Source: Dillenia suffruticosa
Lineage: Eukaryota > Streptophyta > Magnoliopsida > Dilleniales > Dilleniaceae
NCBI GenBank assembly: GCA_033439265.1
Contig: JAVTVX010000015.1
Span: 22,869,947-22,933,946 of the forward strand
Reading direction: 5' to 3'
DNA: 64,000 nucleotides
Shown here: positions 1 through 33,407 of the stretch, one piece after another
How positions within the stretch are numbered: the stretch's first letter is position 1
Layout of the letters: each line of letters opens with the position of its first letter
Position numbers and translations under genes: made by a program
The notes under the pieces: model-generated
The model's database searches: none
Seen by the model: only the letters and a program-made list of their open reading frames with translations
Told to the model about the DNA's origin: nothing

Positions 1-601
1 AAACGTAGTAATCAAAGTAGCTTCGGAAATCGAGAAAAGTTGGAGAAATTTGCGCTAGAGGAAGGGCTTGGACCTTCGACCTTGTGGTTAACAGCAACAC
101 GCTCTAACCAACTGAGCTACTCCAGCATCTGCTAGCGGAACAAGAAAGCATTAAGTTGGTATCCCTTAGACCAGTCAGAATAGGAAAAGTTGAAATGAAA
201 GTTGCTTGGGAAATCGGAAAAAATTGGAGGAATTTAAGTTAGAGGAAGCGCTTGAACCTTCGACCTTGTGGTTAACGGCGAAACGCTCTAACCAACTGAG
301 CTACTTCAGCTCTTCAGAAAAACCAAAAACCATTAATGTTCCCGAGACCAAGTAGCATTGGAAATTGTCGATAGGAAATTGAACTATTTTGAAGTGTAAA
401 AAACTAAAATAATTTACACTAGAGAAAGGGCTACAAACTTTGACCTTGTGGTTAACCGCCACATGCTCTAACCAACTTAAGTACTCCAGCTTTTGCTAGA
501 GGAACAAGAAAGCATTAAGTTGGTGACCCCTAGACCAATCAGAATAGGAAACGTAGTTATCAAATTAGCTTGGGAAATCGAGAGAAATTGGAGAAATTTA
601 C

Positions 602-674
602 GCTAGAGGAAGGGTTTGAACTTTCGACTTTGTGGTTTACAGCCACACGCTCTAACCAACTGAGCTACTCCAGC
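602..674 (-). tRNA. tRNA-Asn-like class D unit with anticodon GUA (Tyr) instead of GUU
   Basis: The anticodon loop reads CTGTAAA, placing GTA at positions 34-36, while the five-base-pair anticodon stem TGTGG/CCACA is intact. The T stem has one mismatch (GAAAG/CCTTC). The matching unit one hexamer later (1700-1772) reads CTGTTAA, so the change is private to this copy. Other identity elements are those of tRNA-Asn. It is most likely a decayed copy, but it is a clean one-base anticodon change. Confidence 0.6.
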
Positions 675-786
675 TTTTGCTAGAGGAACAAGAAAGCATT
701 AAGCTGGTATCCCCTAGACCAGTCAAAATAGGAAAAGTAGTAGTCAAAGTTGCTTGGGAAATCAGAAAAAAATTGGAGTAATTTAC

Positions 787-859
787 GCTAGAGGAAGGGC
801 TTGAACCTTCGGCCTTGTGGTTAACAGCCACACGCTCTAACCAACTGAGCTACTCCAGC
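787..859 (-). tRNA. tRNA-Asn(GUU), class E
   Basis: Acceptor stem GCTGGAG/CTCTAGC pairs fully with one G-U. D stem is GCTC/GAGC, anticodon stem TGTGG/CCACA with loop CTGTTAA (GTT), and T stem GAAGG/CCTTC with loop TTCAAGC. The A box TAGCTCAGTTGG and B box GGTTCAAGCCC are in place. About 15 bp past the 3' end a run of seven T on the minus strand could terminate Pol III. Confidence 0.8.
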
Positions 860-1699
860 TCTTTCGAAAAACCAAAAACCATTGATGTCCCCTAGACCAT
901 GTAGCATTGGAAATTGTCGATAGGCAATTGTAGTAATTTAGAAGTGTAAAAAATTAAAATAATTTACGCTAGAGAAAGGGCAACAAACTTCGACCTTGTG
1001 GTTAACTGTTAGATACTCTGACCAACTAAACTACTGTAGCTTTTGCTAGAGGAACAAGAAAGCAGTAAGTTGGCGACCCCTATACCAATCAGAATAGGAA
1101 ACGTAGTAATCAAAGTAGCTTCGGAAATCGAGAAAAGTTGGAGAAATTTGCGCTAGAGGAAGGGCTTGGACCTTCGACCTTGTGGTTAACAGCAACACGC
1201 TCTAACCAACTGAGCTACTCCAGCATCTGCTAGCGGAACAAGAAAGCATTAAGTTGGTATCCCTTAGACCAGTCAGAATAGGAAAAGTTGAAATGAAAGT
1301 TGCTTGGGAAATCGGAAAAAATTGGAGGAATTTAAGTTAGAGGAAGCGCTTGAACCTTCGACCTTGTGGTTAACGGCGAAACGCTCTAACCAACTGAGCT
1401 ACTTCAGCTCTTCAGAAAAACCAAAAACCATTAATGTTCCCGAGACCAAGTAGCATTGGAAATTGTCGATAGGAAATTGAACTATTTAGAAGTGTAAAAA
1501 ACTAAAATAATTTACACTAGAGAAAGGGCTACAAACTTTGACCTCGTGGTTAACCGCCACATGCTCTAACCAACTTAAGTACTCCAGCTTTTGCTAGAGG
1601 AACAAGAAAGCATTAAGTTGGTGACCCCTAGACCAATCAGAATAGGAAACGTAGTTATCAAATTAGCTTGGGAAATCGAGAGAAATTGGAGAAATTTAC

Positions 1700-1722
1700 G
1701 CTAGAGGAAGGGCTTGAACCTT

Positions 1723-1755
<33 letters not shown>

Positions 1756-1772
1756 AACTGAGCTACTCCAGC
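1700..1772 (-). tRNA. tRNA-Asn(GUU), class D
   Basis: Complete cloverleaf with anticodon GTT and all four stems paired. The 5' flank on the minus strand ends in CAAAA directly before the body, matching the CAA motif usual upstream of plant tRNA genes. The 3' flank of this class has no run of four or more T nearby, so termination would be weak. Confidence 0.8.
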
Positions 1773-1884
1773 TTTTGCTAGGGGAACAAGAAAGCATTAA
1801 GCTGGCATCCCCTAGACCAGTCAAAATTGGAAAAGTAGTAGTCAAAGTTGCTTGGGAAATCAGAAAAAAATTGGAGTAATTTAC

Positions 1885-1957
1885 GCTAGAGGAAGGGCTT
1901 GAACCTTCGGCCTTGTGGTTAACAGCCACACGCTCTAACCAACTGAGCTACTCCAGC
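1885..1957 (-). tRNA. tRNA-Asn(GUU), class E
   Basis: Same cloverleaf as the copy at 787-859, with all stems paired and anticodon GTT, followed by a seven-T run downstream on the minus strand. Confidence 0.8.
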
Positions 1958-2799
1958 TCTTTAGAAAAACCAAAAACCATTGATGTCCCCTAGACCAAGT
2001 AGCATTGGAAATTATCGATAGGCAATTGTAGTAATGTAGAAGTGTAAAAAATTAAAATAATTTATGCTAAGGAAAGGGCTGCAAACTTCGACCTTGTGGT
2101 TAACTGCTAGATACCCTGACCAACTAAACTACTCTAGCTTTTGCTTGAGGAACAAGAAAGCATTAAGTTGACGACCCATAGACCAATCAGAATAGGAAAC
2201 GTAGTAATCAAAGTAGCTTCGGAAATCGAGAAAAATTGGAGAAATTTGCGCTAGAGGAAGGGCTTGGACCTTCGACCTTCTGGTTAACAGCCACATGCTC
2301 TAACCAACTGAGCTACTCCAGCTTTTGCTAGAGGAACAAGAAAGCATTAAGCTGGCATCCCCTAGACCAGTGAAAATAGGAAAAGTAGTAGTCAAAGTTG
2401 CTTGGGAAATAAGAAAAAAATTGGAGTAATTTACGCTAGAGGAAGGGCTTGAACCTTTGGCCTTGTGGTTAACAGCCACACGCTCTAACCAACTGAGCTA
2501 CTCTAGCTCTTTAGAAAATCCAAAAACCATCGATGTCCTCTAGACCAAGTAGCATTGGAAATTGTCGATAGGCAATTGTTGTAATTTAGAAGTGTAAATA
2601 ATTAAAATAATTTATGCTAGAGAAAGGGCTACAAACTTTGACCTTGTGGTTAACCGCCACATGCTCTAACCAACTTAAGTACTCCAGCTTTTGCTAGAGG
2701 AACAAGAAAGCATTAAGTTGGTGACCCCTAGACCAATCAGAATAGGAAACGTAGTTATCAAATTAGCTTGGGAAATCGAGAGAAATTGGAGAAATTTAC

Positions 2800-2822
2800 G
2801 CTAGAGGAAGGGCTTGAACCTT

Positions 2823-2855
<33 letters not shown>

Positions 2856-2872
2856 AACTGAGCTACTCCAGC
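2800..2872 (-). tRNA. tRNA-Asn(GUU), class D
   Basis: Intact cloverleaf, anticodon GTT, CAAAA at the immediate 5' flank. It belongs to a block that looks like a recent duplicate of the block starting near 1700. Confidence 0.8.
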
Positions 2873-2984
2873 TTTTGCTAGAGGAACAAGAAAGCATTAA
2901 GCTGGCATCCCCTAGACCAGTCAAAATTGGAAAAGTAGTAGTCAAAGTTGCTTGGGAAATCAGAAAAAAATTGGAGTAATTTAC

Positions 2985-3057
2985 GCTAGAGGAAGGGCTT
3001 GAACCTTCGGCCTTGTGGTTAACAGCCACACGCTCTAACCAACTGAGCTACTCCAGC
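2985..3057 (-). tRNA. tRNA-Asn(GUU), class E
   Basis: Intact cloverleaf with anticodon GTT and a seven-T run downstream; duplicate partner of 1885-1957. Confidence 0.8.
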
Positions 3058-3534
3058 TCTTTAGAAAAACCAAAAACCATTGATGTCCCCTAGACCAAGT
3101 AGCATTGGAAATTATCGATAGGCAATTGTAGTAATGTAGAAGTGTAAAAAATTAAAATAATTTATGCTAAGGAAAGGGCTGCAAACTTCGACCTTGTGGT
3201 TAACTGCTAGATACCCTGACCAACTAAACTACTCTAGCTTTTGCTTGAGGAACAAGAAAGCATTAAGTTGACGACCCATAGACCAATCAGAATAGGAAAC
3301 GTAGTAATCAAAGTAGCTTCGGAAATCGAGAAAAATTGGAGAAATTTGCGCTAGAGGAATGGCTTGGACCTTCGACCTTGTGGTTAACAGCCACATGCTC
3401 TAACCAACTGAGCTACTCCAGCTTTTGCTAGAGGAACAAGAAAGCATTAAGCTGGCATCCCCTAGACCAGTCAAAATAGGAAAAGTAGTAGTCAAAGTTG
3501 CTTGGGAAATCAGAAAAAAATTGGAGTAATTTAC

Positions 3535-3607
3535 GCTAGAGGAAGGGCTTGAACCTTCGGCCTTGTGGTTAACAGCCACACGCTCTAACCAACTGAGCTA
3601 CTCCAGC
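3535..3607 (-). tRNA. tRNA-Asn(GUU), class E
   Basis: Intact cloverleaf with anticodon GTT, in the extra trimer (3350-3899) that breaks the hexamer register. Confidence 0.78.
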
Positions 3608-4446
3608 TCTTTAGAAAAACCAAAAACCATTGATGTCCCCTAGACCAAGTCGCATTGGAAATTGTCGATAGGCAATTGTAGTAATTTAGAAGTGTAAAAA
3701 ATTAAAATAATTTACGCTGGAGAAAGGGATACAAACTTCGACCTTGTGGTTAACTGCTAGATACTCTGACCAACTAAACTACTCTAGCTTTTGCTAGAGG
3801 AACAAGAAAGCATTAAGTTGGCGACCCCTAGACCAATCAGAATAGGAAACGTAGTAATTAAAGTAGCTTCGGAAATCGAGAAAAATTGGAGAAATTTGCG
3901 CTAGAGGAAGGGCTTGGACCTTCGACCTTGTGGTTAACAGCAACACGCTCTAACCAACTGAGCTACTCCAGCATCTGCTAGAGGAACAAGAAAACATTAA
4001 GCTGGTATCCCTTAGACCAGTAAAAATAGGAAAAGTTGAAATGAAAGTTGCTTGGGAAATCGGAAAAAATTGGAGGAATTTACGTTAGAGGAAGGGCTTG
4101 AACCTTCGACCTTGTGGTTAACGGCGAAACGCTCTAACCAACTGAGCTACTTCAGCTCTTTAGAAAAACAAAAACCATTAATGTTCCCGAGACCAAGTAG
4201 CATTGGAAATTGTCGATAGGAAATTGAACTATTTAGAAGTGTAAAAAACTAAAATAATTTACACTAGAGAAAGGGCTACAAACTTTGACCTTGTGGTCAA
4301 CCGCCACATGCTCTAACCAACTTAAGTACTCCACCTTTTGCTAGAGGAACAAGAAAGCATTAAGTTGGTGACCCCTAGACCAATCAGAATAGGAAACGTA
4401 GTTATCAAATTAGCTTGGGAAATCGAGAGAAATTGGAGAAATTTAC

Positions 4447-4469
4447 GCTAGAGGAAGGGCTTGAACCTT

Positions 4470-4502
<33 letters not shown>

Positions 4503-4519
4503 AACTGAGCTACTCCAGC
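4447..4519 (-). tRNA. tRNA-Asn(GUU), class D
   Basis: Intact cloverleaf, anticodon GTT, CAAAA at the 5' flank. Confidence 0.8.
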
Positions 4520-4631
4520 TTTTGCTAGAGGAACAAGAAAGCATTAAGCTGGCATCCCCTAGACCAGTCAAAATAGGAAAAGTAGTAGTCAAAGTTGCTT
4601 GGGAAATCAGAAAAAAATTGGAGTAATTTAC

Positions 4632-4704
4632 GCTAGAGGAAGGGCTTGAACCTTCGGCCTTGTGGTTAACAGCCACACGCTCTAACCAACTGAGCTACTC
4701 CAGC
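4632..4704 (-). tRNA. tRNA-Asn(GUU), class E
   Basis: Intact cloverleaf, anticodon GTT, seven-T run downstream on the minus strand. Confidence 0.8.
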
Positions 4705-5566
4705 TCTTTAGAAAAACCAAAAACCATTGATGTCCCCTAGACCAAGTCGCATTGGAAATTGTCGATAGGCAATTGTAGTAATTTAGAAGTGTAAAAAATT
4801 AAAATAATTTACGCCGGAGAAAGGGATACAAACTTCGACCTTGTGGTTAACTGCTAGATACTCTGACCAACTAAACTACTCTAGCTTTTGCTAGAGGAAC
4901 AAGAAAGCATTAAGTTGGCGACCCCTAGACCAATCAGAATAGGAAACGTAGTAATTAAAGTAGCTTCGGAAATCGAGAAAAATTGGAGAAATTTGCGCTA
5001 GAGGAAGGGCTTGGACCTTCGACCTTGTGGTTAACAGCAACACGCTCTAACCAACTGAGCTACTCCAGCATCTGCTAGAGGAACAAGAAAACATTAAGCT
5101 GGTATCCCTTAGACCAGTAAAAATAGGAAAAGTTGAAATGAAAGTTGCTTGGGAAATCGGAAAAAATTGGAGGAATTTACGTTAGAGGAAGGGCTTGAAC
5201 CTTCGACCTTGTGGTTAACGGCGAAACGCTCTAACCAACTGAGCTACTTCAGCTCTTTAGAAAAACAAAAACCATTAATGTTCCCGAGACCAAGTAGCAT
5301 TGGAAATTGTCGATAGGAAATTGAACTATTTAGAAGTGTAAAAAACTAAAATAATTTACACTAGAGAAAGGGCTACAAACTTTGACCTTGTGGTCAACCG
5401 CCACATGCTCTAACCAACTTAAGTACTCCAGCTTTTGCTAGAGGAACAAGAAAGCATTAAGTTGGTGACCCCTGGACCAATCAGAATAGGAAACGTAGTT
5501 ATCAAATTAGCTTGGGAAATCGGGAGAAATTGGAGAAATTTACGCTAGAGGAAGGGCTTGAACCTT

Positions 5567-5599
<33 letters not shown>

Positions 5600-6665
5600 A
5601 ACTGAGCTACTCCAGCTTTTGCTAGAGGAACAAGAAAGCATTAAGCTGGCATCCCCTAGACCAGTCAAAATAGGAAAAGTAGTAGTCAAAGTTGTTTGGG
5701 AAATCAGAAAAAAATTTGAGTAATTTACGGTAGAGGAAGGGCTTGAACCTTCGGCCTTGTGGTTAACAGCCACACGCTCTAACCAACTGAGCTACCCCAG
5801 CTCTTTAGAAAAACCAAAAACCATTGATATCTCCTAGACCAAGTCGCATTGGAAATTGTCGATAGGCAATTGTAGTAATTTAGAAGTGTAAAAAATTAAA
5901 ATAATTTACGCTGGAGAAAGGGCTACAAACTTCGACCTTGTGGTTAACAGCTAGATACTCTGACCAACTAAACTACTCTAGCTTTTGCTAGTGGAACATG
6001 AAAGCATTAAGTTGGCGACCCCTAGACCAATCAGAATAGGAAAAGTAGTAATTAAAGTAGCTTCGGAAATCGAGAAAAATTGGAGAAATTTGCGCTAGAG
6101 GAAGGGTTTGGACCTTCGACCTTGTGGTTAACAGCAACACGCTCTAACCAACTGAGCTACTCCAGCATCTGCTAGAGGAACAAGAAAGCATTAAGTTGGT
6201 ATCCCTTAGACCAGTCAAAATAGAAAAAGTTGAAATGAAAATTGCTTGGGAAATCGGAAAAAATTGGAGGAATTTACGTTAGAGGAAGGGCTTGAACCTT
6301 CGACTTGTGGTTAACGGCGAAACGCTCTAACCAACTGAGCTACTTCAACTCTTTAGAAAAACCAAAAACCATTAATGTTCCCGAGACCAAGTAGCATTGG
6401 AAATTGTCGATAGGAAATTGAACTATTTAGAAGTGTAAAAAACTAAAATAATTTACACTAGAGAAAGGGCTACAAACTTTGACCTTGTGGTTAACCGCCA
6501 CATGCTCTAACCAACTTAAGTACTCCAGCTTTTGCTAGAGGAACAAGAAAGCATTAAGTTGGTGACCCCTAGACCAATCAGAATAGGAAACGTAGTTATC
6601 AAATTAGCTTGGGAAATCGAGAGAAATTGGAGAAATTTACGCCAGAGGAAGGGCTTGAACCTTCA

Positions 6666-6696
<31 letters not shown>

Positions 6697-7762
6697 AACT
6701 GAGCTACTCCAGCTTTTGCTAGAGGAACAAGAAAGCATTAAGCTGGCATCCCCTAGACCAGTCAAAATTGGAAAAGTAGTAGTCAAAGTTGCTTGGGAAA
6801 TCAGAAAAAAAATTGGAGTAATTTACGCTAGAGGAAGGGCTTGAACCTTCGGCCTTGTGGTTAACAGCCTCACACTCTAACCAACTGAGCTACTCCAGCT
6901 CTTTAGAAAAACCAAAAACCATTGATGTCCCCTAGACCAAGTAGCATTGGAAATTGTCGATAGGCAATTGTAGTAATTTAGAAGTGTAAAAAATTAAAAT
7001 AATTTACGCTAGAGAAAGGGCTACGAACTTCGACCTTGTGGTTAACTGCTAGATACTCTGACCAACTAAACTACTCTAGCTTTTGCTAGAGGAACAAGAA
7101 AGCATTAAGCTGGCGACCCCTAGACCAATCAGAATAGGAAACGTAGTAATTAAAGTAGCTTCGGAAATCGAGAAAAATTGGAGAAATTTTCGCTAGAGGA
7201 AGGGCTTGGACCTTCGACCTTGTGGTTAACAGCAACACGCTCTAACCAACTGAGCTACTCCAGCATCTGCTAGAGGAACAAGAAAGCATTAAGTTGGTAT
7301 CCCTTAGACCAGTCAGAATAGGAAAAGTTGAAATGAAAGTTGCTTGGGAAATCGGAAAAAATTGAAGGAATTTACGTTAGAGGAAGGGCTTGAACCCTCG
7401 ACCTTGTGGTTAACAGCGATACGCTCTAACCAACTGAGCTACTTCAGCTCTTTAGAAAAACCAAAAACCATTAATGTTCCCGAGACCAAGTAGCATTGGA
7501 AATTGTCGATAGGAATTTGAACTATTTAGAAGTGTAAAAAACTAAAATAATTTAAACTAGAGAAAGGGCTACAAACTTTGACCTTGTGGTTAACCGCCAC
7601 ATGCTCTAACCAACTTAAGTACTCCAGCTTTTGCTAAAGGAACAAGAAAGCATTAAGTTGGTGACGCCTAAACCAATTAGAATAGGAAACGTAGTTATCA
7701 AATTAGCTTGGGAAATCGAGAGAAATTGGAGAAATTTACGCTAGAGGAAGGGTTTGAACCTT

Positions 7763-7795
<33 letters not shown>

Positions 7796-8473
7796 AACTG
7801 AGCTACTCCAGCTTTTGCTAGAGGAACAAGAAAGCATTAAGCTGGCATCCCCTAGACCAGTCAAAATAGGAAAAGTAGTAGTCAAAGTTGCTTGGGAAAT
7901 CAGAAAAAAATTCGAGTAATTAACGCTAGAGGAAGGGCTTGAACCATCGGCCTTGTGGTTAACAGCCACACGCTCTAACCAACTGAGCTACTCCAGCTCT
8001 TTAGAAAAACCAAAAACCATTGATGTCCCCTAGACCAAGTCGCATTAGAAATTGTCGATAGGCAATTGTAGTAATTTAGAAGTGTAAAAAATTGAAATAA
8101 TTTACGCTAAAGAAAAGGCAACAAACTTCGACTTTGTGGTTAACTGCTAGATACTCTGACCAACTAAACTACTCTAGCTTTTGCTAGAGGAACAAGAAAG
8201 CATTAAGTTGACGACCCCTAGACCAATCGGAATAGGAAACGTAGTAATCAAAGTAGCTTCAGAAATCGGGAAAAATTGGAGAAATTTACGCAAGAAGAAG
8301 GGCTTGGACCTTCGTCCTTGTGGTTAATAGCCACACGCACTAACCAACTGAGCTACACCAGCATCTGCTAGAGGAACAAGAAAGCATTAAGTTGGTATCC
8401 CTTAGACCAGTCAGAATAGGAAAAGTTGAAATTAAAGTTGCTTGGGAAATCGAAAAAAATTTGAGGAATTTAC

Positions 8474-8645
8474 GTTAGAGGAAGGGCTTGAACGTTCGAC
8501 CTTGTGGTTAACAGCGATACGCTCTAACCAACTGAACTACTCCAGCTCTTTAGAAAAACCAAAAACCATTAAGTTAGAGGAAGGGCTTGAACCTTCGACC
8601 TTGTGGTTAACGGCGAAACGCTCTAACCAACTAAGCTACTTCAGC
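8474..8645 (-). repeat. Extra class B unit from a 98-bp partial duplication
   Basis: Two tRNA-like bodies (8474-8546 and 8573-8645) are only 99 bp apart instead of about 183. The spacer between them is cut short after the AAAAACCAAAAACCATT core. The hexamer containing them is about 98 bp longer than its neighbours, so this is an insertion by partial duplication and not a deletion. The tRNA bodies are class B, with imperfect acceptor stems. Confidence 0.75.
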
Positions 8646-8935
8646 TCTTTAGAAAAACAAAAACCATTAATGTTCCCGAGACCAAGTAGCATTGGAAATT
8701 GTCGATAGGAAATTGAACTATTTAGAAGTGTAAAAAACTAAAATAATTTACACTAGAGAAAGGGCTACAAACTTTGACCTTGTGGTCAACCGCCACATGC
8801 TCTAACCAACTTAAGTACTCCAGCTTTTGCTAGAGGAACAAGAAAGCATTAAGTTGGTGACCCCTAGACCAATCAGAATAGGAAACGTAGTTATCAAATT
8901 AGCTTGGGAAATCGAGATAAATTGGAGAAATTTAC

Positions 8936-8958
8936 GCTAGAGGAAGGGCTTGAACCTT

Positions 8959-8991
<33 letters not shown>

Positions 8992-9008
8992 AACTGAGCT
9001 ACTCCAGC
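8936..9008 (-). tRNA. tRNA-Asn(GUU), class D
   Basis: Intact body with anticodon GTT and CAAAA at the 5' flank. Confidence 0.78.
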
Positions 9009-9120
9009 TTTTGCTAGAGGAATAAGAAAGCATTAAGCTGGCATCCCCTAGACCAGTCAAAATAGGAAAAGTAGTAGTCAAAGTTGCTTGAGAAATCAGA
9101 AAAAAATTGGAGTAATTTAC

Positions 9121-9193
9121 GCTAGAGGAAGGGCTTGAACCTTCGGCCTTGTGGTTAACAGCCACACGCTCTAACCAACTGAGCTACTCCAGC
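9121..9193 (-). tRNA. tRNA-Asn(GUU), class E
   Basis: Intact body with anticodon GTT and a seven-T run downstream on the minus strand. Confidence 0.78.
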
Positions 9194-10033
9194 TCTTTAG
9201 AAAAACCAAAAACCATTGATGTCCCCTAGACCAAGTCGCATTGGAAATTGTCGATAGGCAATTGTAGTAATTTAGAAGTGTAAAAAATTAAAATAATTTA
9301 CGCTGGAGAAAGGGCTACAAACTTCGACCTTGTGGTTAACTGCTAGATACTCTGACCAACTAAACTACTCTAGCTTTTGCTAGTGGAACAAGAAAGCATT
9401 AAGTTGGTGACCCCTAGACCAATCAGAATAGGAAACGTAGTAATTAAAGTAGCTTCGGAAATCGAGAAAAATTGGAGAAATTTGCGCTAGAGGAATGGCT
9501 TGGACCTTCGACCTTGTGGTTAACAGCAACACGCTCTAACCAACTGAGCTACTCCAGTATCTGCTAGAGGAACAAGAAAGCATTAAGTTGGTATCCCTTA
9601 GACCAGTCAAAATAGGAAAAGTTGAAATGAAAGTTGCTTGGGAAATCGAAAAAAATTGGAGGAATTTACGTTAGAGGAAGGGCTTGAACCTTCGACCTTG
9701 TGGTTAACGGCGAAACGCTCTAACCAACTAAGTTACTTCAGCTCTTTAGAAAAACCAAAAACCATTAATGTTCCCGAGACCAAGTAGCATTGGAAATTGT
9801 CGATAGGAAATTGAACTATTTAGAAGTGTAAAAAACTAAAATAATTTACACTAGAGAAAAGGCAACAAACTTTCACCTTGTGGTTAACCGCCACATGCTC
9901 TAACCAACTTAAGTACTCCAGCTTTTGCTAGAGGAACAAGAAAGCATTAAGTTGGTGATCCCTAGACCAATCAGAATAGGAAACGTAGTTATCAAATTAG
10001 CTTGGGAAATCGAGAGAAATTGGAGAAATTTAC

Positions 10034-10056
10034 GCTAGAGGAAGGGCTTGAACCTT

Positions 10057-10089
<33 letters not shown>

Positions 10090-11155: not shown

Positions 11156-11188
<33 letters not shown>

Positions 11189-21949: not shown

Positions 21950-21996
<47 letters not shown>

Positions 21997-22102: not shown

Positions 22103-23668
22103 TTACTCAGTAAATAGATGAGGGTACTGTCCCCTCATAGTCTCCTCGGACTCCCAAGTCTCCTCCTCGACTTGGTTGTTACGCCACAAAATGCGTACTA
22201 ACGGGACATCCTTGCTTCGCAGTCTACGGATCTGCTTGTCAAGGACTGCTACGGGCTGTACAGGTAAACTCAGGTCCTCCCGTAGCTCAACTGGTGGAGA
22301 TTCTAAAACATGAGAAGGGTCAGGCATATATCTCCTAAGCACTGAGACATGGAACACATCATGAATACGTGCCAACTCCTCTGGCAAGTCCAATCTGTAT
22401 GCCACACTTCCGATCCTCTCAAGAATACGGAAGGGCCCAATATACCTGGGGCTCAGCTTGCCCCGCTGCCTGAAACGGATCACCCCTTTCCAGGGTGAGA
22501 TCCTCAAGAATACCATGTCTCCCTCTTGAAACTCCAGTGGTCGCCGCCTACGGTCTGCATACGCCCTCTGTCGATCCTGGGCGGCTCTCATCCTCTGTCG
22601 GATGATCTTGACCTTCTCCCTCGTCTCCTCAACAGGCTCCACACTGCTGAGGTGCCTCTCACCGACCTCGTCCCAACATAAAGGTGTGCGGCATCGCCTC
22701 CCATACAATGCCTCGTATGGAAGCATCCCGATACTCGCCTGGTAGCTGTTATTATATGCAAACTCTACAAGTGGTAAATGCTTATCCCAACTACCATGAA
22801 AATCAATAACACAAGCCCGAAGCATATCCTCAAGTGTCTGAATTGTGCGCTCTGACTGGCCATCTGTCTGACGATGATAGGTTGTGCTAAAGTTCAGTCT
22901 AGTACCCAATGCCTCCTGCAAACTGGGTCAGAACCTAGACGTGAACCAGGGGTCCCTGTCTGAAACAATCGACACAGGCACCCCGTGAAGTCGTACTATG
23001 GTGTCCATATAGAGACGTGCCAGTACCTCCAAGGAGTAGTCACCATGGATGGGGATAAAGTGTGCAGATTTGGTGAGTCGATCGACAATCACCCAAATCG
23101 CATCATGCTGCATGAAAGTCCTCGGTAACCCCATCACGAAATCCATAGTAATATGTTCCCACTTCCACTCAGGAATGGGAAGTGGCTGTAAAATACCTGC
23201 TGGTTTCTGGTGCTCAGCCTTCACCTGCTGGCACACCAAGCACCGTGCTACAAACTCTACTATCTCCCGCTTCATGCCCGACCACCAATAACTGCCTCTG
23301 ATGGTGCGGTACATCTTTGTACTCCCGGGATGCATAGCATAAGCCGAAGAGTGTGCCTCCTCAAGAATAGCACGTCGAAGCTCAACATCAGCTGGAATAC
23401 ACACTCTGTCTCTGAGAACCACGAGTCCATCAGTACGGACTCGGAAATCCCCGCCCTCTCCTCGATAAATCCGATCGTGAATAGCCTGGAGCTCTACATC
23501 TGTACCCTGAAGCTCTGTGATGCGGTCAAGTAGTGTAGGCCGCACTTCAAATCTGGTTAACAATGTACCGTGCTCATCGCTAGCCAAGCTGACTCCCAAA
23601 GCTCGGAGTCCTACCAAGCAAGAGTTGTAAGCTCTCTCTGCTGCCTGAGAAGTGGTAGAAGAAGATGA
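22103..23668 (-). pseudogene. Gypsy-1 integrase with chromodomain-like tail (broken)
   Basis: The zinc-binding HHCC region is visible (HPGSTK near its start, then CLVCQQVK). The catalytic core follows with a D in the [10 protein letters not shown] stretch, a second D in VSDRDPWFT and the E in GQSERTIQTLEDM. The C-terminal part carries a GPF/Y-like segment (YIGPFRILERIG) and ends in a chromodomain-like stretch around EEETWESEE, typical of Tekay/Del. One in-frame TGA at about 22928-22930 interrupts the reading just after the WFTSRF stretch; reading then resumes in the same frame. The enzyme would insert the cDNA copy into chromosomal DNA. Confidence 0.88.
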
Positions 23669-25150
23669 CTTCCGGCTCAAGGCATCTGCTACTACATTTG
23701 CCTTGCCTGGATGATAGTCAATAACCAAGTCGTAGTCCTTCAGCAGCTCTAACCATCTTCTCTGTCTCAGGTTTAGCTCTCTCTGAGTAAATAAATACTT
23801 CAAACTCTTATGGTCTGTGAAGACCCTACAAGTAACTCCATATAAGTAATGCCGCCATATTCTCAGTGCGAAGACTATGGCTGCCAGCTCTAGATCGTGA
23901 GTAGGGTAGTTCACCTCATGCTTCTTCAACTGTCTCGAAGCATAGGCGATCACCCGTCCATCCTACATCAATACGCAACCTAACCCCTGCCGGCTGGCAT
24001 CACTATACACAACATACTCCCTGCCGCTGGTAGGGAGAGCCAAGATAGGTGCCGATGTCAGTCGTTGTTTGAGCTCCTGAAAGCTCGCCTCACAGCGGTC
24101 ATCCCAACAGAACTTGACGTCTTTCCTCGTCAATCGGGAGAGTGGAGCAGCAATCTTCGAGAAACCCTCTACGAATTGTTTGTAATAACCAGCAAGTCCA
24201 AGAAAACTCCGGATCTCAGTAATGGTCTGCGGCTGCTCCCACCTCAATATGACCTCTACTTTCTGCGGATCAACAAAAATCCCCTCCGCAGAAACAATGT
24301 GGCCTAGAAATCCAATCTCCCTTAGCCAAAATTCATACTTGGTGAATTTGGCATATAACTGCTGCTCACGGAGAGTCTGTAAGACCACCTTCAGGTGCTG
24401 TACATGCTCCTCATCACTCCGTGAGTATACCAAAATGTCATCAATAAAGACGATAACGAAACGATCTAAGTAGTTATGGAAAACTCAGTTCATCAAATCC
24501 ATAAAAGCCGCTGGAGCATTAGTCAATCCAAACGGCATCACTAAAAACTCAAAGTGACCATAGCGAGTGCGGAATGCAGTTTTGGGCACGTCCTCGGCCC
24601 GAATCCGTAACTGATGATAACCAGACCGCAAATCGATCTTCAAAAAGACCCGTGCACCCTGAAGCTGGTCAAATAGGTCATCAATACGTGGCAGAGGATA
24701 CCGGTTCTTGACGGTCACCTTATTCAACTGCCGATAATCCATGCACAGTCATAGGGTCCCATCATTTTTCTTCACAAACAACACCGGAGCACCCCAAGGC
24801 GAAGTGCTCGGACGGATAAAGCCCTTGTCTAGTAATTCCTGCAACTGAACCTTGAGCTCTCTCAGTTCAGTTGGCACCATTCTATATGGCGGAATAGATA
24901 TAGGGGCGGCTCCCGGAACTATGTCGATCTCAAAGTCAAACTCCCAAGCCGGTGGAAGGCCGGGTAGCTCCTCAGGGAAAACATCTGCAAACTCCTGTAC
25001 TACAGGGACATCCTCATTCCTTGGTCCCTTCACAGTAATATCCACAACATGGGCCAAGTACGCAGTGCAACCTTGGCGTATTAACCTCCTGGCATCCATC
25101 ACCGAAATAACACAGCGAGGCAATACTCTCCTCTCACCAGAAAATCTCAA
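23669..25150 (-). pseudogene. Gypsy-1 reverse transcriptase and RNase H (broken)
   Basis: Reverse transcriptase motifs are clear: DYRQLNKVT, the [11 protein letters not shown] stretch, [12 protein letters not shown] and the catalytic FIDDIL. RNase H begins at [16 protein letters not shown] and ends near ADALSRK. Three in-frame stops lie at about 23954-23962, 24480-24488 and 24743-24748, all at positions where a C-to-T or G-to-A change from a sense codon explains the stop. All pieces from 22103 to 25150 share one reading frame, so the damage here is by point mutation only. Confidence 0.88.
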
Positions 25151-25518
25151 AGTAAGCCCCTCTGATCTTCAAAACTCGACCTCCTTAGAAAACAATCAAC
25201 GGAGGCTTTGTGTCTGCTCAGCCAATCCATGCCAAGGATGGCATCAATATCGGTCAAGTCCAAAGGGATCAAATCTGCCTCAAGTACGGTATTTCCAATC
25301 ATGATCTCTATCCCTCTATAGACTGAATCTCTCAAGAACTGTTCACCGAGAGGAGTGAAAACCAATATCTCCTCTCTAAGTGGCGTCAAAGGCTTACCCA
25401 TCAGGCGGGCAAAGGACGTTCTCACATACGAGTAGTTCGACCCGGTGTCGATCAGGATACGGGCGTCGACTCCATAAATCCTCATAGTTCCTAAATGTGG
25501 GGAAAGTAAATAGATCAC
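25147..25518 (-). pseudogene. Gypsy-1 aspartic protease (frameshifted relative to RT)
   Basis: The ILIDTGSNYSYV stretch holds the DTGS-type active site of a retropepsin, followed by ILGMDWLSRHKA, standard for Ty3/Gypsy. This segment is in a different frame from the RT region. A frameshift occurs near 25185-25195, and a stop codon is also met in the RT frame just upstream of its first open stretch. Confidence 0.85.
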
Positions 25519-25726
25519 TTTAAATAAAGGTGGTAATAGATACTCATCATATATATCTCAAAAGTATATGTATCTCAAAAGTAGGTACAGCCAACATAGT
25601 CAAGCCTCTAAGGCTTTGGCTTATGATGAGTCTCAAAATAAAAGTACAGAGGAAATATCTAAGTGTGTGAGTCAGAAAGGGGAGTACCAATAATGACATC
25701 GGGGTTCGTCTGCGTATCCTCCTGCG

Positions 25727-25990
25727 TCATTGCGTATACTTGGGCCTGAGCCCTCGGCGGTTGCCGCGATGGTCCTGGTGCCTACTACTCCCAGCTACTG
25801 CTCGTGGGGCTATGGGGGTAGAGTGTGCCGGTGCTCCCTGCTGTCCCCCTCGTGGACCACTAGACTGAATAGAAATTGCCGGACCCCCTGCTCCAAGATC
25901 AGGGCACTGGCTCTTGATGTGCCCCTGTCTCCCAACTGGAAACAAGTCACTGTCACCCCGCAAGCTCCGTAGGGGTGATGTCTGCCGCAT
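25727..25990 (-). pseudogene. Gypsy-1 gag C-terminus, degraded zinc knuckle
   Basis: A GRQGHIKSQCP stretch is what remains of a CCHC zinc knuckle; the first two cysteines of the motif are missing. The rest is Gly/Pro/Ser-rich, as in the linker before protease. It is in another frame from the main gag segment, so a frameshift separates them. Between 25519 and 25726 no open frame was seen. Confidence 0.7.
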
Positions 25991-26064
25991 CGATGACTAA
26001 AAGGGTATCGTCGGGCTATAGTCTGAGTGGAGGCACTCGGGGCTGGTGCTCTAAACCCCTGGGA

Positions 26065-27036
26065 CTATGATCCCTGCCTCTGGGAAGGGTCTCCGTGAAA
26101 CCCTGAGGTTCTCCCTTTCTTCGAACTCTGGCCCCTAGAAAACTCAGGCCTCTTCCTCCTCTGCTCCCTCCTCTCTCTCTGTCGTCCCTCAGCAAGGACG
26201 ATCTCCTCAGCCCGGAGTGCTGAGTCTACTATCTCTGGCAATGAGAAATTAGGGGTCACCGTCATATACCTCCGGACGTTCAAGTTGAGGCCATCCTCAA
26301 ACTTGAACCTCAACTGACTGGGTGTGGCTAGGTCCGGAACAAAAGCGGCCAGTCTCCTTAACTTGGCCTCATACTCGGTCACAGTTCGAGTCCCCTGCCG
26401 CAGGTGGTGGAACTCCGTCCTTTTCCTGTTCTGCTGGAATGCTGAAAAATATCTGCGGTTGAACTCCCGCAGAAAGTCCTCCCAACTCCTGGGCTCCGCT
26501 GCATCATCACAAGCTGCCTCCCACCACGAGAGGGCATCTCCATCCAATAATCTCTCGGCCACTCGGAGTCTGAACTCCTCACTCAAGCCAAGGTCTATCA
26601 ACACTCGGCGGGTGCGGTTGATCCAGTGCTTCGCAGCAGTGGAATCACCTACCCTAAAGAACTCGGTACAGCCTAGCTGTCTCGCCTCCTTCACGAGCTG
26701 GGTGAGCTCGTGAATCCGTCTCAACGTCGAAGAAGTACTGTCCCTGGGTTTAGAAATTGCAGATGGACTAACAACAGGTGGAGGCTCTGGTGCGACTGGT
26801 CGTGGCACGGCCGTAGGGGTTGGCTCAGCCAACGGTGGTGGTGGCATCTGAATGCCGTGGGCAGCGTACCACTCGAACACCTGTCGGTAGGCGTCCAGCG
26901 GTGGCGGTGGTGGTAGATCTGCGGCCGTGTTGGTCGGTGGTGTAGGCACTGAAGGAGAACCGTGTGAGGAAGACATGTCCTCCGATACACTAGGGGGCTC
27001 AGTAGGTAAGAAGTGGGTACCTCGCCTAGTCGTCAT
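26065..27036 (-). pseudogene. Gypsy-1 gag (capsid region)
   Basis: 323 residues starting with ATG. A Pro-rich N-terminal part (residues about 35-95) precedes a retrotransposon gag domain (about 110-290). That domain contains the LLDGDALSWWEA stretch, a WEDFLREFNRRYF stretch and a TVTEYEAKLRRLA stretch, all typical of Ty3/Gypsy gag. It ends in a basic tail. The reading is open throughout but shifts frame before the zinc knuckle, so the full gag cannot be made. It lies about 300 bp from the 5' LTR. Confidence 0.87.
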
Positions 27037-27335
27037 ATTTCTGCGAGGAAAAAGTTACTAATCAGGCAGATATATAAGAATTAGGGTTAGTTATGGAATA
27101 ACTAACCCCCTAAAAGAAATCAACTTGGCATCGGAACCAATGGATAAGGTATGCTAGGTTAGATATGATCCGTGTCCAACCCTCTAAAAATGGATGAACT
27201 CATCTGCCTATGACCATGTATTGGGGAATGACTGTACAGTAACTTTCACATGCATTGAGGACTCTCAAAATCAGATTTATTTGGGGATATATTTTTTTTT
27301 TTGAAATCAGTTTCTCAACTCAGCTCTAACCAAGA

Positions 27336-27349
27336 GGCTCTGATAACAA
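27336..27349 (-). promoter_or_regulatory. Gypsy-1 primer-binding site (initiator Met-tRNA type)
   Basis: The minus strand reads TTGTTATCAGAGCC eight bases inside the 5' LTR. It is close to the TGGTATCAGAGC used by plant elements primed by initiator methionine tRNA, with one changed and one shifted base. Confidence 0.75.
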
Positions 27350-27357
27350 CCGAGGCC

Positions 27358-30121
27358 TGTCACGCCCCGACCCACTCCTGAGCCAGGCACGCAACGAGCC
27401 CGTCGCGGCACCCAGATGCACGGGCACCACGTCCCGCACATTGAAGCACCGTAAGGCTGTCAACATTCATATAATCCAAGTTTCCAAATCACAGAAATCC
27501 CTAAGTGATAAAAATAATACATGTATGCCTCAATGTAAATTAAAATGAGTGAGAGTTAACCTTATGCAGACCAAAAGAATTATAAATACAGTCATCCCAA
27601 TTTAAACAAATACAATGGTCATCCTAACTTCCTCAAGATGAAACAATAACCTCAATATATAGCGGAAGAGCGGGTAGTCATACCCCGGCCCCGTAGTCTC
27701 CAAAGAATATCCAATACAACAATGCGCACAAATCTCTCGGTCTGAGTCTACCCCTGTAGGAGGGAAATGTGAGGGGTGAGTACCATAGAGAGGGGGGTTG
27801 GTACTCAGCAAGTCGGGGGGAATGACATGCTACAATTAATTTTTTTGGGTGAATTAGGAGTGCCAAAATTATGTCCCAATAAATCCATAGTATGCAAAAA
27901 AAATATTATGACATCTCAATAAATCATTCATAGCATACGTATCAAATCAAATATGCATCCAGTATATATGTCCGTTATATCGTATAGAGCCAGCCGAAAA
28001 TATCCCGGCAAGGGCCGACCATGGCCAAGGACGGGCAACGTTGGGGGTTTTCACAGTGCAAGTAATAAAATAAGGTTCTCTACCCCAACGTTGGCCACAG
28101 ACTACTCCAACTAGCCTGTATATATATATCATACACGTATCAAGGATCAAGCGTGTATGGAAACCCGCCGGTGCTAGACCTACCAAGGTCCTCCCCGGAG
28201 TGGTTCAACCGACGACTGTCCATATAATATGTATGACGATCTGGCGGATACCCCCTGCAGAGGCGTATCCGGACACAACAGGTGCCTCTACCAAATGTCC
28301 TTCGTAGTTACGGAATGCCATAGGAAGCATATCATCATCATCATAGTATCCACAGGGGCATCCAGCCCAAATCACATATCTCAAGCCAAATCATCAAGCC
28401 CTATCATGTCAAAAGCATGTGCCAATATGCAATGGAAGCATAAAATCATGTGGATATATCAAAGTGTGGCACAATCATCAAGTATCAAAATCATGGATGC
28501 ATATAGATATAAACAAGTTGGGACACTCCATATATCACAAAACATTTTCATAAATCCAGGAGAATAGATCAATCATACCATTTTAAATCATGCTTTGGAA
28601 AGCTTTTTAAAACACGATATTAATTAAAAGTAGATGTCAAGTCCCACTCACAGTTAGGGGAGGATAACGTACTCCCCAATATTTTCACAAAGCGTAAATC
28701 AAGTGTCCCCTCCGTTCAACTCAAATAACTCTTAGGGAGACAAACAGTCCGTAGATTTTTAACCTGCGCAGTCATGGAAAACAGACTATAACTTTGGCTA
28801 TACCAATCCAAATCAGATGATTCTTATCTCATTTTAAAGCTAAGGGATAACACTATAACTTTCATTTTGCACACTTCCTCACATTCAGATCACAGAATTC
28901 CCGGTAAGCCTCATTTTGTTACAGCCATATTTAAGTTTCAGATTCTGTCCAGTTTTCGTACAGAAGCTATAACTTTCATCCTACTCATCAAAGTTAATGA
29001 AATTTTAACATGTTATAGCTAAGATGTAGATCTACAACTTTCGTGTTTTGAGTTTTATCTAAATATGTCTGGAAGGGGTTGAACAAAATTTATGAACAGG
29101 ACAGATACGTTTTAGTGAAACATACAGTTTCTGTCAACACAGTTTTAAGGAAAATTGTATAACTTTCAATTTCCTCATGCGAAATGGCTGAACTTTTTAT
29201 ATGTTATAGACAAGGCATATATCTATAACTTTCATGTTTTGTGTTTCTTCAAACTAAGACTGGAGAGGGGTCGTTTTTACTCACTACTGTCAAGGTTCGA
29301 AACAGGACACTTCTATGTCGAGTTTCAGGAAAAGTGCCATAACGTTTGGCACAGGCATCAGAATTTGGTGATTCTTTACTCGTTCGAAAGATAAGACTTA
29401 GATCTACAATTCATATAACTATCACATTTTCAAATTCTGGCTCTAAGATGCCTTAAAACAGAGATGAATTACGGACAGAAATAAAATTTAAAGTAAGACA
29501 GGATAAAATTTTTTACCTCACTTTCTTTGTCTTCCTCTCTTGCTTCTCTCCTTGTTCTCACGAATTTGGGAAGAATGAACAAGCATTCTAAGACCTCCTT
29601 TTATTATTGTGTTAATAAGTCACCACCCTAGGATCAAATCTCCAATTAATCTAAACCATAGGATCATTTTGATTATTGCATATGTTTTGATTGGTTCTTT
29701 TTTTTTTTGTGCATGTGTTTTCATTGGCCCACCTTGCCTTTCTCATCTCTATTTGGCCAACACTTGTCCTCCTCACTATAACACTTGTTCAATACAAGAA
29801 TACACTTGTCACATTTCATTTAAGTTTTGTTAATTGCTAACAAGTCCTTTGACTTATAAAAATTCTAATTTGACCCCTAAAATTTTCATAATTACATACT
29901 AGGCCCAAAATCTTATATTAGACCTAATTTAATTTATTTAATATGAAATTAAGGTTTTGATTCTCTTTGAGTCAAAATTGATCCGATTTGTATTTTACCG
30001 TCAAATATCTTTTTTTTTTTTGTGAAAATTCATGAACCTGTAGTAGTAGAAATATCATATATATCTATATATATATATGAAATGGAATTCACTATAGAAT
30101 ACGCCGAGAGTCGGTGTTACA
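27358..30121 (-). repeat. Gypsy-1 5' LTR
   Basis: 2764 bp, paired with 19255-22034. Ends are TGTCACGCC and GTGTTACA on the plus strand. It is followed directly by the duplicated GAGCT and the remaining 8 nt of the interrupted tRNA-Asn body. It should contain the promoter for the minus-strand element transcript, but no promoter box could be fixed by eye. Confidence 0.93.
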
Positions 30122-30634
30122 GAGCTACTCCAGCTTTTGCTAGAGGAACAAGAAAGCATTAAGCTGGCATCCCCTAGACCAGTCAAAATAGGAAAAGTAG
30201 TAGTCAAAGTTGCTAGGGAAATTAGAAAAAAATTGGTGTAATTTACGCTAGAGGAAGGGCTTGAACCTTCGGCCTTGTTGTTAAGAGCCATACGCTCTAA
30301 CCAACTGAGCTACTCCAACTCTTTAGAAAAACCAAAGACCATTTATGTCCCCTAGACCAAGTAGCATTGGAAATTGTCGATAGGCAATTGTAGTAATTTA
30401 GAAGTGTAAAAAATTACAATAATTTACGCTAAAGAAAGGGCTGCAAACTTCGACCTTGTGGTTAACTGCTAGATACTCTGACCAACTAAACTACTCTAGC
30501 TTTTGCTAGAGGAACAAGAAAGCATTAAGTTGACGACCCCTAGGCCAATCAGAATAGGAAACGTAGTAATCAAAGTAGCTTCGGAAATCGAGAAAAATTG
30601 GAGAAATTTGCGCTAGAGGAAGGGCTTGGACCTT

Positions 30635-30667
<33 letters not shown>

Positions 30668-33407
30668 AACTGAGCTACTCCAGCATCTGCTAGAGGGACA
30701 GGAAAGCATTAAGTTGGTATCCCTTAGACCAGTCAGAATAGGAAAAGTTGAAATGAAAGTTGCTTGGGAAATCGAAAAAAATTGGAGGAATTTACGTTAG
30801 GGGAAGGGCTTGAACCTTCGACCTTATGGTTAACAGCCATACGCTCTAACCAACTGAGCTACTCCAGCTCTTTAGAAACACCAAAAACCATTAATGTTCC
30901 CTAGACCAAGTAGCATTGGAAATTGTCGATAGGAAATTGAACTATTTAGAAGGGTAAAAAACTAAAATAATTTACGCTAGAGAAAGGGCTACAAACTTCA
31001 ACCTTGTGGTTAACCGCCACATACTCTAACCAACTTAACTACTCCAGCTTTTGCTAGAGGAACAAGAAAGCATTACGTTGGCGACCCCTAGACCAGTCAG
31101 AATAGGAAACATAGTTATCAAAGTAGCTTGGGAAATCGAGAAAAATTGGAGAAATTTACGCTAAAGGAAGGGCTTGAACCTTTAACCTTATGGTTAATAG
31201 CTACACGCTCTAACCAACTGAGCCACTCCAGCTTTTGCTAGAGGAACAAGAAAGCATTTAGCTGGCATCCCCTAGACCAGTCAAAATAGGAAAAGTAGTA
31301 ATCAAAGTTGCTTGGGAAATCGGAAAAAAATTGGAGTAATTTACACTAGAGGAAGGGCTTGAACTTTCGACCTTGTGGTTAACAGCCACATGCTCTAACC
31401 AACTGAGCTACTCCAGCTTCTCCTAGAGGAACAAGAAAGCATTAAGCTGGCATCCCCTAGACCAGTCAGAATAGGACAAGTAATAATCAAAGTTGCTTGG
31501 GAAATCAAAAAAGATTGGAGTAATTTACGCTCGAGGAAGGACTTGAACCCTCGACCTTATGGTTAACAGCCACACGCTTTAACCATATGAACTACTCCAG
31601 CTCTGTTAGAAAAACCAAAAACCATTAATGTCCCCTAGACCAAGTTGTTTTCGAAATTGTCGATTGGTAATTATACTAATCTACAAGTTAAAAAATTATA
31701 GTAATTTACGCTAGAGAACGGACTTGAAACTTCGACCTTGTGGTTAACAACCACATGCTCTAAGCAACTGTGCTACTCCAGCTTTTGCTAGAGCAACAAA
31801 AAAGCATTAAGTTGGCGTCCCCTAGACCGGTCAGAAAGGGAATAGTAGTAATCAAAGTAGCATGGGAAATCGGGAAAAAATTGAAGTAATTTACGCTAGA
31901 GAAAGGGGTTTAACGTTCGACTTTGTGGTTAACAATCACAAGCTCTAACCAACTGAGCTACTCCTGCTTCAGGTTGAGAAACAACAAATTATTAAATAGA
32001 CATGTTAGAATAGTAAAACAATTGTTAGGGAAATTGTCAATTGAGTTACTCCAGCTTCTATTAGAGAAACACGTAAACATTTAGGTCCATAGACTAGTTA
32101 GACTAGTAAAGAAGTGGCTTGAGAAATTATTGGTGAGCAATTATAGTAATCTAGAAGTGGAAAAAAAATTACGCTTGAACCTTTGACCTTGTCGATACTC
32201 TAACCAACTGAGCTACTCTAGTTTCTGCTAGAGAACTAAGAAAGCATTAAGTTGCCATCCCGTAGACCAGATATAAAAGTTAAGAAATGGTTTGGGAAAT
32301 AATTGGTGGCAATTATAGTAATCAGGAAGTAGAAAAATTATAGTAATTTATGCTAGATAAGGCCTTGGCTTCTGCTAGAGAAACAAAAATGCATTAAGGT
32401 CTCAAGACATGTTGGAATATTAAAGTAGCATCTGTAATTGTTAGTAAGCAATTATAATAATCCAGAAGTATAAAAAATTTGGAAACATTTATGTTAGAGA
32501 GAGGGCATAAACCTTCGACCTTGTGGTTAACAACAGCATGCTCTAACCAATTGAGCTGCTCAAGCATCTGTTAGAAAAACAAAAAACCATTAATGTCCCA
32601 TAAACCAAGTAGCTTCAGAAAGAAGTAAAAAATATTGGAGTAATTTACGCCAGAGGAATGGCTTGAAGCTTCGACCTTGTGGTTAATAGCCACACGCTCT
32701 AACCAACTGAACTTCTCCAGCCCTTTAGAAAATCCAAAAACCATTAATGTCCCCTAGACCATTTAGCATTGGAAATTTTCGATAAGCAATTGTAGTAATT
32801 TAAGTGTAAAAAATTAAAATAATTTACGCAAGAGAAAGGGCTACAAACTTCGACCTTGTGCTTACCTGCAACAAACTCTAACCAACTAAACTACTCCATC
32901 TTTTGCTAGAGGAACAAGAAAGCATTAAGTTGGCGACCCTTAGACGAGTCAGAATAGGAAACGTAGTAATCAAAGTAGCTTGGGAAATCAAAAAAAATTG
33001 GAGAAATTTGCGCTAGAGGAAGAGCTTGAGCCTTCGACCTTGTGGTTAATAGCCACACGCTCTAACCAACTGAGATACTCCAGCTTCTGCTAGAGGAACA
33101 AGAAAGCATTAAGTTGGCATCCCTTAGACCAGTCAGAATTGGAAAAGTAGTAATCAAAGTTGCTTGGGAAATTGGAAAAAATTGAAGTAATTTATGTTAG
33201 AGGAAGGGCTTGAACCTTCGACCTTGTGGTTAACAGCTACACGTCCTAACTAACTGAGTTACTCCAGCTCCTTAGAAAAACCAAAAACCATCAATGCCCC
33301 CTAAACCAAGTAGCATTGGAAATTGTCGATAGGCAATTGTAGAAATTTAGAAGTGTAAAAAATTAAAATAATTTACGCTAAAGAAAGGGCAACAAGCTTT
33401 GACCTTG
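30122..33407 (-). repeat. tRNA-Asn tandem satellite array, right arm (decaying)
   Basis: About 17 further monomers continue the array after Gypsy-1. Up to about 31.5 kb the units keep their length and order. From about 31.6 to 32.6 kb they are strongly diverged, with short or missing spacers and incomplete tRNA bodies. From 32.64 to 33.40 kb they look better again. The array ends abruptly at about 33407 in the middle of a unit, joined to copia-derived sequence. This looks like the edge of a satellite that is no longer homogenised. Confidence 0.92.
30247..30319 (-). pseudogene. Degenerate tRNA-Asn unit with anticodon CUU (Lys)
   Basis: The anticodon loop reads CTCTTAA, which would give anticodon CTT. 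The anticodon stem is broken (TATGG against CAACA), so a functional tRNA is unlikely. Confidence 0.6.

Follow-up and report, generated by a model that had tools for sequence, protein, structure and literature searches.

As described in the parts of the published reports covered here, tandem tRNA arrays and tRNA-derived satellites are already known. Plant clusters include the Pro and Ser-Tyr-Tyr (SYY) clusters of Arabidopsis and a 28-fold tRNA-Ile array in maize; clusters in a 50-species survey held from two to 110 genes, and those of Arabidopsis are reported to be methylated and silent in most tissues (PMC11700998, PMC12652284, PMC12308677). The Arabidopsis tRNA-Cys cluster consists of four to six units of ~420 bp with a flanking pseudogene (PMC10701932). 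The arrays of Entamoeba comprise nearly all tRNA genes, without clear evidence of pseudogene copies according to the authors (PMC2652664). The tRNA-derived satellite DNAs of Harttia catfish are mostly complex, with parts derived from tRNAs and from short and long interspersed nuclear elements (SINEs and LINEs) (PMC11955569). Here we describe a tandem array of tRNA-Asn-like sequences on contig C15 (JAVTVX010000015.1) of the Dillenia suffruticosa assembly GCA_033439265.1 (596 Mb in 37 contigs), analysed in a stretch of 64,000 nucleotides, hereafter the window (C15:22,869,947-22,933,946). The array is organised in higher-order repeats (HORs). Sequence comparison makes it probable that tandem duplication of a tRNA-Asn gene, followed by recombination-driven homogenisation, produced a single-locus, satellite-like HOR array in which the tRNA bodies are passengers.

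The array shares with the plant clusters tandem tRNA duplication at short spacing and repeated multi-gene units, as in Ser-Tyr-Tyr. ARAGORN calls at window positions 786, 1150 and 1699, taken without the tRNAscan-SE high-confidence filter, give it the at least three tRNA genes (tDNAs) per kb that define a plant tDNA cluster (PMC11700998). It differs in having one isotype, a ~183-bp monomer, diverged monomer classes in trimer and hexamer HORs, mostly pseudogenes, and decayed relatives; satellite-type HORs and a neutrality test of bodies versus spacers are not described in the parts of the cluster papers covered. The tRNA-Cys cluster resembles it in its units of tRNA plus spacer, copy-number variation, edge pseudogene and sequence variation between copies, but has only its few units and, in the parts covered, no HOR is described. 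The Entamoeba arrays are likewise long and homogenised, most likely by concerted evolution, whereas most positions here are pseudogenes. Harttia satellites also contain tRNA-derived sequence, whereas the monomer here is a gene plus its flank at one locus. In alpha-satellite-type HORs, monomers of diverged classes are amplified as multimers; unlike these, the tRNA-Asn array is not shared between chromosomes, and a centromere role is at most putative. The HOR form of a tRNA-gene array is apparently unreported: no report of a tRNA-gene satellite with HORs was recognised in the literature searched, mostly by title and abstract opening and with subscription journals poorly covered. No publication on a Dillenia genome or its tRNAs was recognised by title among the best 10 of 18,616 matches.

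A profile search for the tRNA-Asn body in window positions 1-34,000 found 122 tRNA-Asn-like bodies on the minus strand, the last at 33268. They lie ~183 bp apart in head-to-tail monomers, each a body plus a ~110-bp spacer, which bears out the ~120 copies of a 183-bp monomer reported in an initial annotation of this DNA. With ARAGORN, 68 tRNAs were predicted in the window, of which 66 are Asn and the other two Tyr and Lys, and 83 places reached the gathering score of Rfam RF00005. The same annotation had put the array at 1-33407; a tandem array does lie in that interval, but it starts upstream, and the HOR is lost at ~31.4-33.4 kb. Upstream of the window the array occupies the whole of locus L029, with 55 further bodies (177 for L029 and the window together), and its left end lies near C15:22,857,574 in locus L051 (14 bodies, the first three irregularly spaced). 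In total it spans ~45.8 kb with ~191 bodies (C15:22,857,574-22,903,353), including a 10.9-kb Gypsy element that separates two blocks. The left block (1-19254, minus strand), delimited by profile search, lag identity and clustering, holds ~183-bp monomers in 1,098-bp hexamers X1-X6 and continues upstream. In the right block (30122-31420, minus strand; profile search and clustering) the HOR order is still recognisable. A degenerate right edge follows (31421-33407, minus strand; profile search and class-consensus identity), with divergent monomers, partial deletions and a truncated last body near 33407, and then flanking DNA. This edge does not keep the HOR, and nine monomers there have a mean identity of 0.911 to the best class consensus, against 0.979 in the remainder.

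Body spacings in transcription order are 181, 185, 184, 180, 184 and 184 bp, or 1,098 bp per hexamer. Mean identity between monomers of the left block is 0.896 at a lag of three monomers and 0.946 at a lag of six, against 0.749-0.763 at lags 1, 2, 4 and 5; multimer units resemble each other more than their constituent monomers do. Clustering was carried out on 169 units of 175-190 bp, out of the 177 bodies in L029 and the window. It yields five classes, of which the B-type cluster was divided into X2 and X5 according to the following monomer, so that the orders X2>X3 and X5>X6 hold by construction. The resulting class sizes were 32 (X1), 26 (X2), 28 (X3), 22 (X4), 26 (X5) and 26 (X6), with four unassigned B-type monomers and five singletons from the degenerate right edge. 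The trimer order A-B-C is kept by 156 of 158 adjacent classified monomers, whereas the average over 2,000 label shuffles was 51.5 and no shuffle exceeded 74; monomer order is non-random by the clustering check that the annotation had proposed. The A-type monomer preceding B predicts the C-type after it (X1-B-X3, 25; X4-B-X6, 21; X1-B-X6, 4; X4-B-X3, 0). This linkage across B is independent of the construction and, together with the lag-6 peak, underpins the hexamer. The trimer and hexamer organisation first proposed for the array is thus seen in the spacing cycle, the lag peaks, the register and the class linkage. Where the hexamer order breaks, the jump is mostly trimer-sized (X3>X1 five times, X1>X5 four times, X3>X5 and X4>X1 once each), and hexamers differ by about 5%.

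A complete tRNA-Asn(GTT) consensus body is found only in X1 and X2, and X3-X6 are pseudogene classes. The earlier description of monomers built around a tRNA-Asn body holds throughout for a tRNA-Asn-like body, but an intact gene occupies just two hexamer positions out of six. Retention of every one of the 21 stem pairs, together with the invariant residues tested, was scored in four classes and seen in 21/32 copies of X1, 16/26 of X2, 0/22 of X4 and 0/26 of X5. One hexamer on the minus strand illustrates the classes, each body located by profile search. Its X1 body (18272-18345) is intact and scores 72.1 bits with Rfam, and its X2 body (18087-18160; Rfam, 68.6 bits) is one base off the class consensus. 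The X3 body (17904-17976) is a pseudogene with a C-type spacer, placed by clustering, as is X6 (17356-17428). By clustering and the stem-pair test, the X4 body (17723-17796) is a pseudogene of a class whose consensus is mismatched in the acceptor and anticodon stems, and in the tRNA-Asn-like X5 body (17539-17612) the T-loop is changed from TTC to TCC.

The RNA polymerase III (Pol III) signals of the copies, as read from the sequence, appear mixed. All 32 X1 copies have a run of T7 or longer downstream within 40 nt of the body, whereas 21 of the 26 X2 copies have no run of at least four T in that distance and the X2 spacer consensus has none; the other five have T5 and may be X5-like recombinants. 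Runs of at least four T within 40 nt occur in every copy of X3 (28/28), X4 (22/22), X5 (26/26) and X6 (26/26). A CAA within 12 nt upstream is found in the consensuses of X2 (at -5), X3 and X6 and not in those of X1, X4 and X5. An intact body, a CAA within 12 nt upstream and a nearby run of at least four T do not occur together in any class consensus. The four dispersed tRNA-Asn genes examined all have at least four T within 25 nt, and two of them have CAA by eye. In X1, X2, X4 and X5 the last 4 nt before the next body are preceded by a 10-nt copy of the 3' end of the tRNA, at a score that 5-14 of 1,000 block shuffles also attain. The spacer was also considered as a second degenerate tRNA; this was rejected, with no alignment past the 10-nt copy and nothing in X3 and X6. 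No other RNA was found in the spacer, all 24 Rfam matches in window positions 1-6000 being tRNA.

Within classes, bodies and spacers vary alike. Diversity in bodies and spacers, respectively, was 0.0296 and 0.0258 in X1, 0.0339 and 0.0317 in X2, 0.0446 and 0.0524 in X3, 0.0464 and 0.0403 in X4, 0.0401 and 0.0383 in X5, and 0.0562 and 0.0309 in X6, with body/spacer ratios from 0.85 (X3) to 1.82 (X6) and of 1.15 in X1 and 1.07 in X2. Body diversity was significantly below spacer diversity in no class (permutation p 0.30-0.96), and segregating sites agreed. The share of variants at structure-breaking or invariant sites was close to that expected by chance, 12 of 23 in X1 (11.4 expected) and 14 of 26 in X2 (13.8 expected). 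Selection on tRNA bodies, as a gene bank would show, was not detected within X1 or X2, although an older constraint on these two is hinted at.

Satellite DNA is characterised by a long head-to-tail array of one monomer family, by concerted, neutral-type evolution and by high abundance, often at many loci. The locus shows the first in its 122 bodies in the window and ~191 overall, and the second in the diversity within classes, apart from the hint of older constraint. It lacks the third, the young spacer being at one 46-kb locus, and we therefore call the array satellite-like. A genome search with the hexamer returned 238 matches, and among the matches listed all are on C15 save short tRNA-body matches on C18. 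The X1 spacer alone matched 82 times, in all cases at C15:22.858-22.903 Mb, in a search less sensitive than the profile search, which finds old spacers in locus L052. It is thus not shared by several chromosomes as centromeric satellites are, although some true centromeric satellites are not either. The array spacer is missing from the four dispersed tRNA-Asn loci examined, which have the same isodecoder T-stem.

Decayed relatives of the family occur, among the matches listed, only on the same chromosome, at C15:22.31-22.76 Mb, a stretch of about 0.45 Mb; their monomers are mostly 150-200 bp long. Body and spacer p-distances there are 0.2473 and 0.2499 in L052 (19 units), 0.2209 and 0.2325 in L023 (10), 0.2634 and 0.2015 in L014 (7) and 0.2592 and 0.2176 in L015 (8), such that monomers in these four loci differ at similar rates in bodies (22-26%) and spacers (20-25%). 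Twelve segmental duplicates compared with L052 differ at 525/8,706 body positions (0.0603) and 1,359/25,443 of the rest (0.0534). They were drawn from the 17 loci L012-L028, leaving out L012, L020 and L028, which overlap the reference, and L014 and L018, which have no match above 88%; without two more loci that overlap others, the counts are 423/6,870 and 1,152/21,043. The two best-preserved old bodies show 2-6 changes per duplicate, and places in the old arrays are about 89-95% alike between blocks. Lag identities, classes, shuffles and segmental duplicates together support the initial proposal that a satellite with HORs arose from a tRNA-Asn gene.

Other tandem tRNA arrays in the genome have different units. 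Near 18.19 Mb on C18, a tRNA-Asn array of ~420-bp units has 21 bodies in 10 kb and no match to the array spacers. With 20 of its 21 units taken unselected, body and spacer values there are 0.1414 and 0.1396; a subset picked by body score (0.0586 versus 0.1501) was discarded as biased. At C15:12.776-12.897 Mb, a unit of ~1,893 bp holds one intact and one degenerate tRNA-Asn and has no match to the spacers of the 183-bp array in the 10 kb tested. From their spacers and units, both arrays appear independent of the 183-bp array, of which the one on C15 is a dimeric counterpart. On C1, tRNA-Ile genes form an array of ~819-bp units (12 genes in 10 kb). Matches to tRNAs also cluster at C1:4.32-4.34 Mb (Ile; L006 and L060), C11:12.58-12.71 Mb (Cys, typed at L005 only), C29:14.69-14.70 Mb (Lys; L004) and C13:16.69-16.72 Mb.

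The array is split by a 10.9-kb Ty3/Gypsy long terminal repeat (LTR) retrotransposon inserted into one monomer (19255-30121, minus strand), recognised from its LTRs, target duplication and Pfam domains. The 5-bp target duplication, GAGCT, lies inside the tRNA A-box (19246-19254 and 30122-30126), with four extra bases between one copy and the LTR. With one insertion, and with about 40% of a monomer taken up by the body, no targeting can be deduced. The LTRs are 97.0% identical over 2,788 aligned positions (53 mismatches and 8 gap openings), and at a substitution rate of 1.3e-8 per site per year the insertion would be, very roughly, ~0.7 million years old. The element is younger than the array it splits. 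Its C-terminus is chromodomain-like, at a Pfam score of 22.1 bits that is below the 25.1 cut-off.

We propose that tandem duplication on C15 of a nuclear tRNA-Asn(GTT) gene and its flank gave monomers mostly 150-200 bp long. Part of this family would then have decayed and been duplicated again as larger segmental blocks, in an order that is inferred. A trimer and later a hexamer would have been amplified from three diverged monomer types (A, B and C), so recently that about 95% likeness between hexamers persists, with a 46-kb single-locus array as the outcome. Unequal crossing-over or gene conversion in trimer register would homogenise the interior and leave the right edge diverged, as suggested by the register, the trimer-sized gains and losses, and the edge divergence; the amplification mechanism is to that extent inferential. 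The tRNA bodies would now be passengers, and the about two thirds of X1 and X2 copies that are still tRNA-like would be so because the amplification is young and not because selection keeps them.

Several observations weigh against neutral passengers. The X1 and X2 consensuses differ at 1/73 body sites and 14/111 spacer sites (one-sided Fisher p=0.004), a contrast that is one of fifteen class pairs and was picked because both bodies are intact; it suggests constraint, or body-limited conversion, before the hexamer formed. Of the 58 classified X1 and X2 copies, 37 have lost none of the 21 stem pairs or of the invariant residues tested. Weak constraint could be hidden by transcription-associated mutation. 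The array at C15:12.85 Mb was intended as a positive control, with an intact body invariant across 5 units; over 14 units, 3/73 body and 50/829 spacer sites segregate (p=0.36; nucleotide diversity, pi, 0.0059 versus 0.0201), and its degenerate partner tRNA gives 3/73 and 48/877 sites (pi 0.0194 versus 0.0187). The control thus yields no significant contrast, which leaves the power of the neutrality tests uncalibrated. Because monomers were found through their similarity to the tRNA body, those recovered from the decayed arrays are biased towards conserved bodies.

The same observations bear on the gene bank that the initial annotation had offered as one option, in which X1 and X2 would be transcribed, perhaps in certain tissues as reported for SYY in Arabidopsis, and tRNA supply would be the reason for keeping the array. 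The SYY cluster is expressed in root tips, according to the part of the report covered (PMC12308677), and the 83 Rfam-passing bodies, the long T-runs of X1, the CAA at -5 of X2 and the body conservation between the X1 and X2 consensuses all fit such a bank. Yet intact bodies show no constraint within X1 or X2, four of the six hexamer positions are pseudogene classes, most X2 copies have no nearby terminator-like T-run, and no class consensus joins an intact body to both flanking signals, even if CAA is also missing from 2/4 dispersed genes; we regard a working gene bank as unlikely. The other option, a structural satellite such as a C15 centromere core whose 183-bp unit holds CENH3 or heterochromatic nucleosomes, is decidedly unlikely. 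In its favour are the monomer length, a young HOR core with older decayed relatives on the same chromosome, the Gypsy insertion with its sub-threshold chromodomain-like C-terminus, and an excess of C>T at CG+CHG over CHH sites, as in methylated DNA (34/2,608 versus 69/8,994, odds ratio 1.7, p=0.009), where C>A and C>G are not raised (10 versus 49, p=0.35). The X1 spacer, however, is matched at this locus only, 46 kb is small, the position is 22.9 of 25.8 Mb, and no nucleosome-type 10-bp AA/TT/TA period is apparent in a scan without shuffle control. The argument from the 183-bp length, which the annotation had placed in the centromeric range, is weakened because several tandem tRNA arrays occur here with varying unit lengths, ~420 and 1,893 bp in the other tRNA-Asn arrays. 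A related idea, in which a young, chromosome-specific HOR satellite from a tRNA gene has come to act in chromatin, through centromeric or heterochromatic nucleation on C15, while the Pol III promoters of the intact X1 and X2 copies supply the transcription, seems to us at least as doubtful.

A tRNA-derived SINE turned tandem would account for a monomer made of a tRNA head and a tRNA-unrelated part. It is extremely unlikely, and a satellite shared between chromosomes is unlikely, because the X1 spacer is confined to the array (82/82 matches); the four dispersed tRNA-Asn loci lack it too, and without dispersed copies of the whole unit a SINE origin is already contradicted. Long near-identical repeats assemble poorly, and the assembled sequence alone was examined, but an over-expanded or mis-joined repeat is very unlikely given that hexamers differ by ~5%, divergence is greater at the right edge than inside the array, and a retrotransposon with a 5-bp target duplication interrupts one monomer. 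Homogenisation of a duplicated tRNA-Asn gene into a satellite-like array is the reading that we retain.

Beyond the array, the window holds a CACTA-type transposase (tnp2; 46598-48979, plus strand) and a DUF4216 open reading frame (49638-50402), with palindromic repeats of ~30 bp flanking the transposase at 43.5-45.2 and 52.9-53.4 kb. The transposase protein is 82% identical to one of Zingiber officinale and 80% to one of Curcuma longa, the next full-length match among those listed being at 58%. In a Dillenia-like eudicot host this is a candidate for horizontal transposon transfer, or may reflect uneven transposon sampling in databases. A DELLA protein of the host shares 95% identity, over 89% of its length, with one of Dillenia turbinata, the next of the 120 matches listed being at 75% or less, which places the genome in or near the Dilleniaceae; plastid matK yielded fragments only, most of them interrupted by stop codons. 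A CTA microsatellite of 140 copies lies at 54468-54887. Elsewhere, on C10 (38.4 Mb), GRAS genes of similar frame lengths are placed mirror-wise at 3.57/37.15, 7.56/29.72, 10.80/26.33 and 16.92/19.91 Mb, as if, from frame lengths and positions, two homeologous chromosomes had joined.

In the C15 array, a gene of protein synthesis would be seen on its way into satellite-like DNA at a single locus, where intact genes, pseudogene classes, HORs and decayed relatives can all be observed. The array lends itself to asking at what point a duplicated tRNA gene escapes selection and how HORs originate, and it carries the warning that annotation-based tRNA gene counts may be inflated by such arrays.

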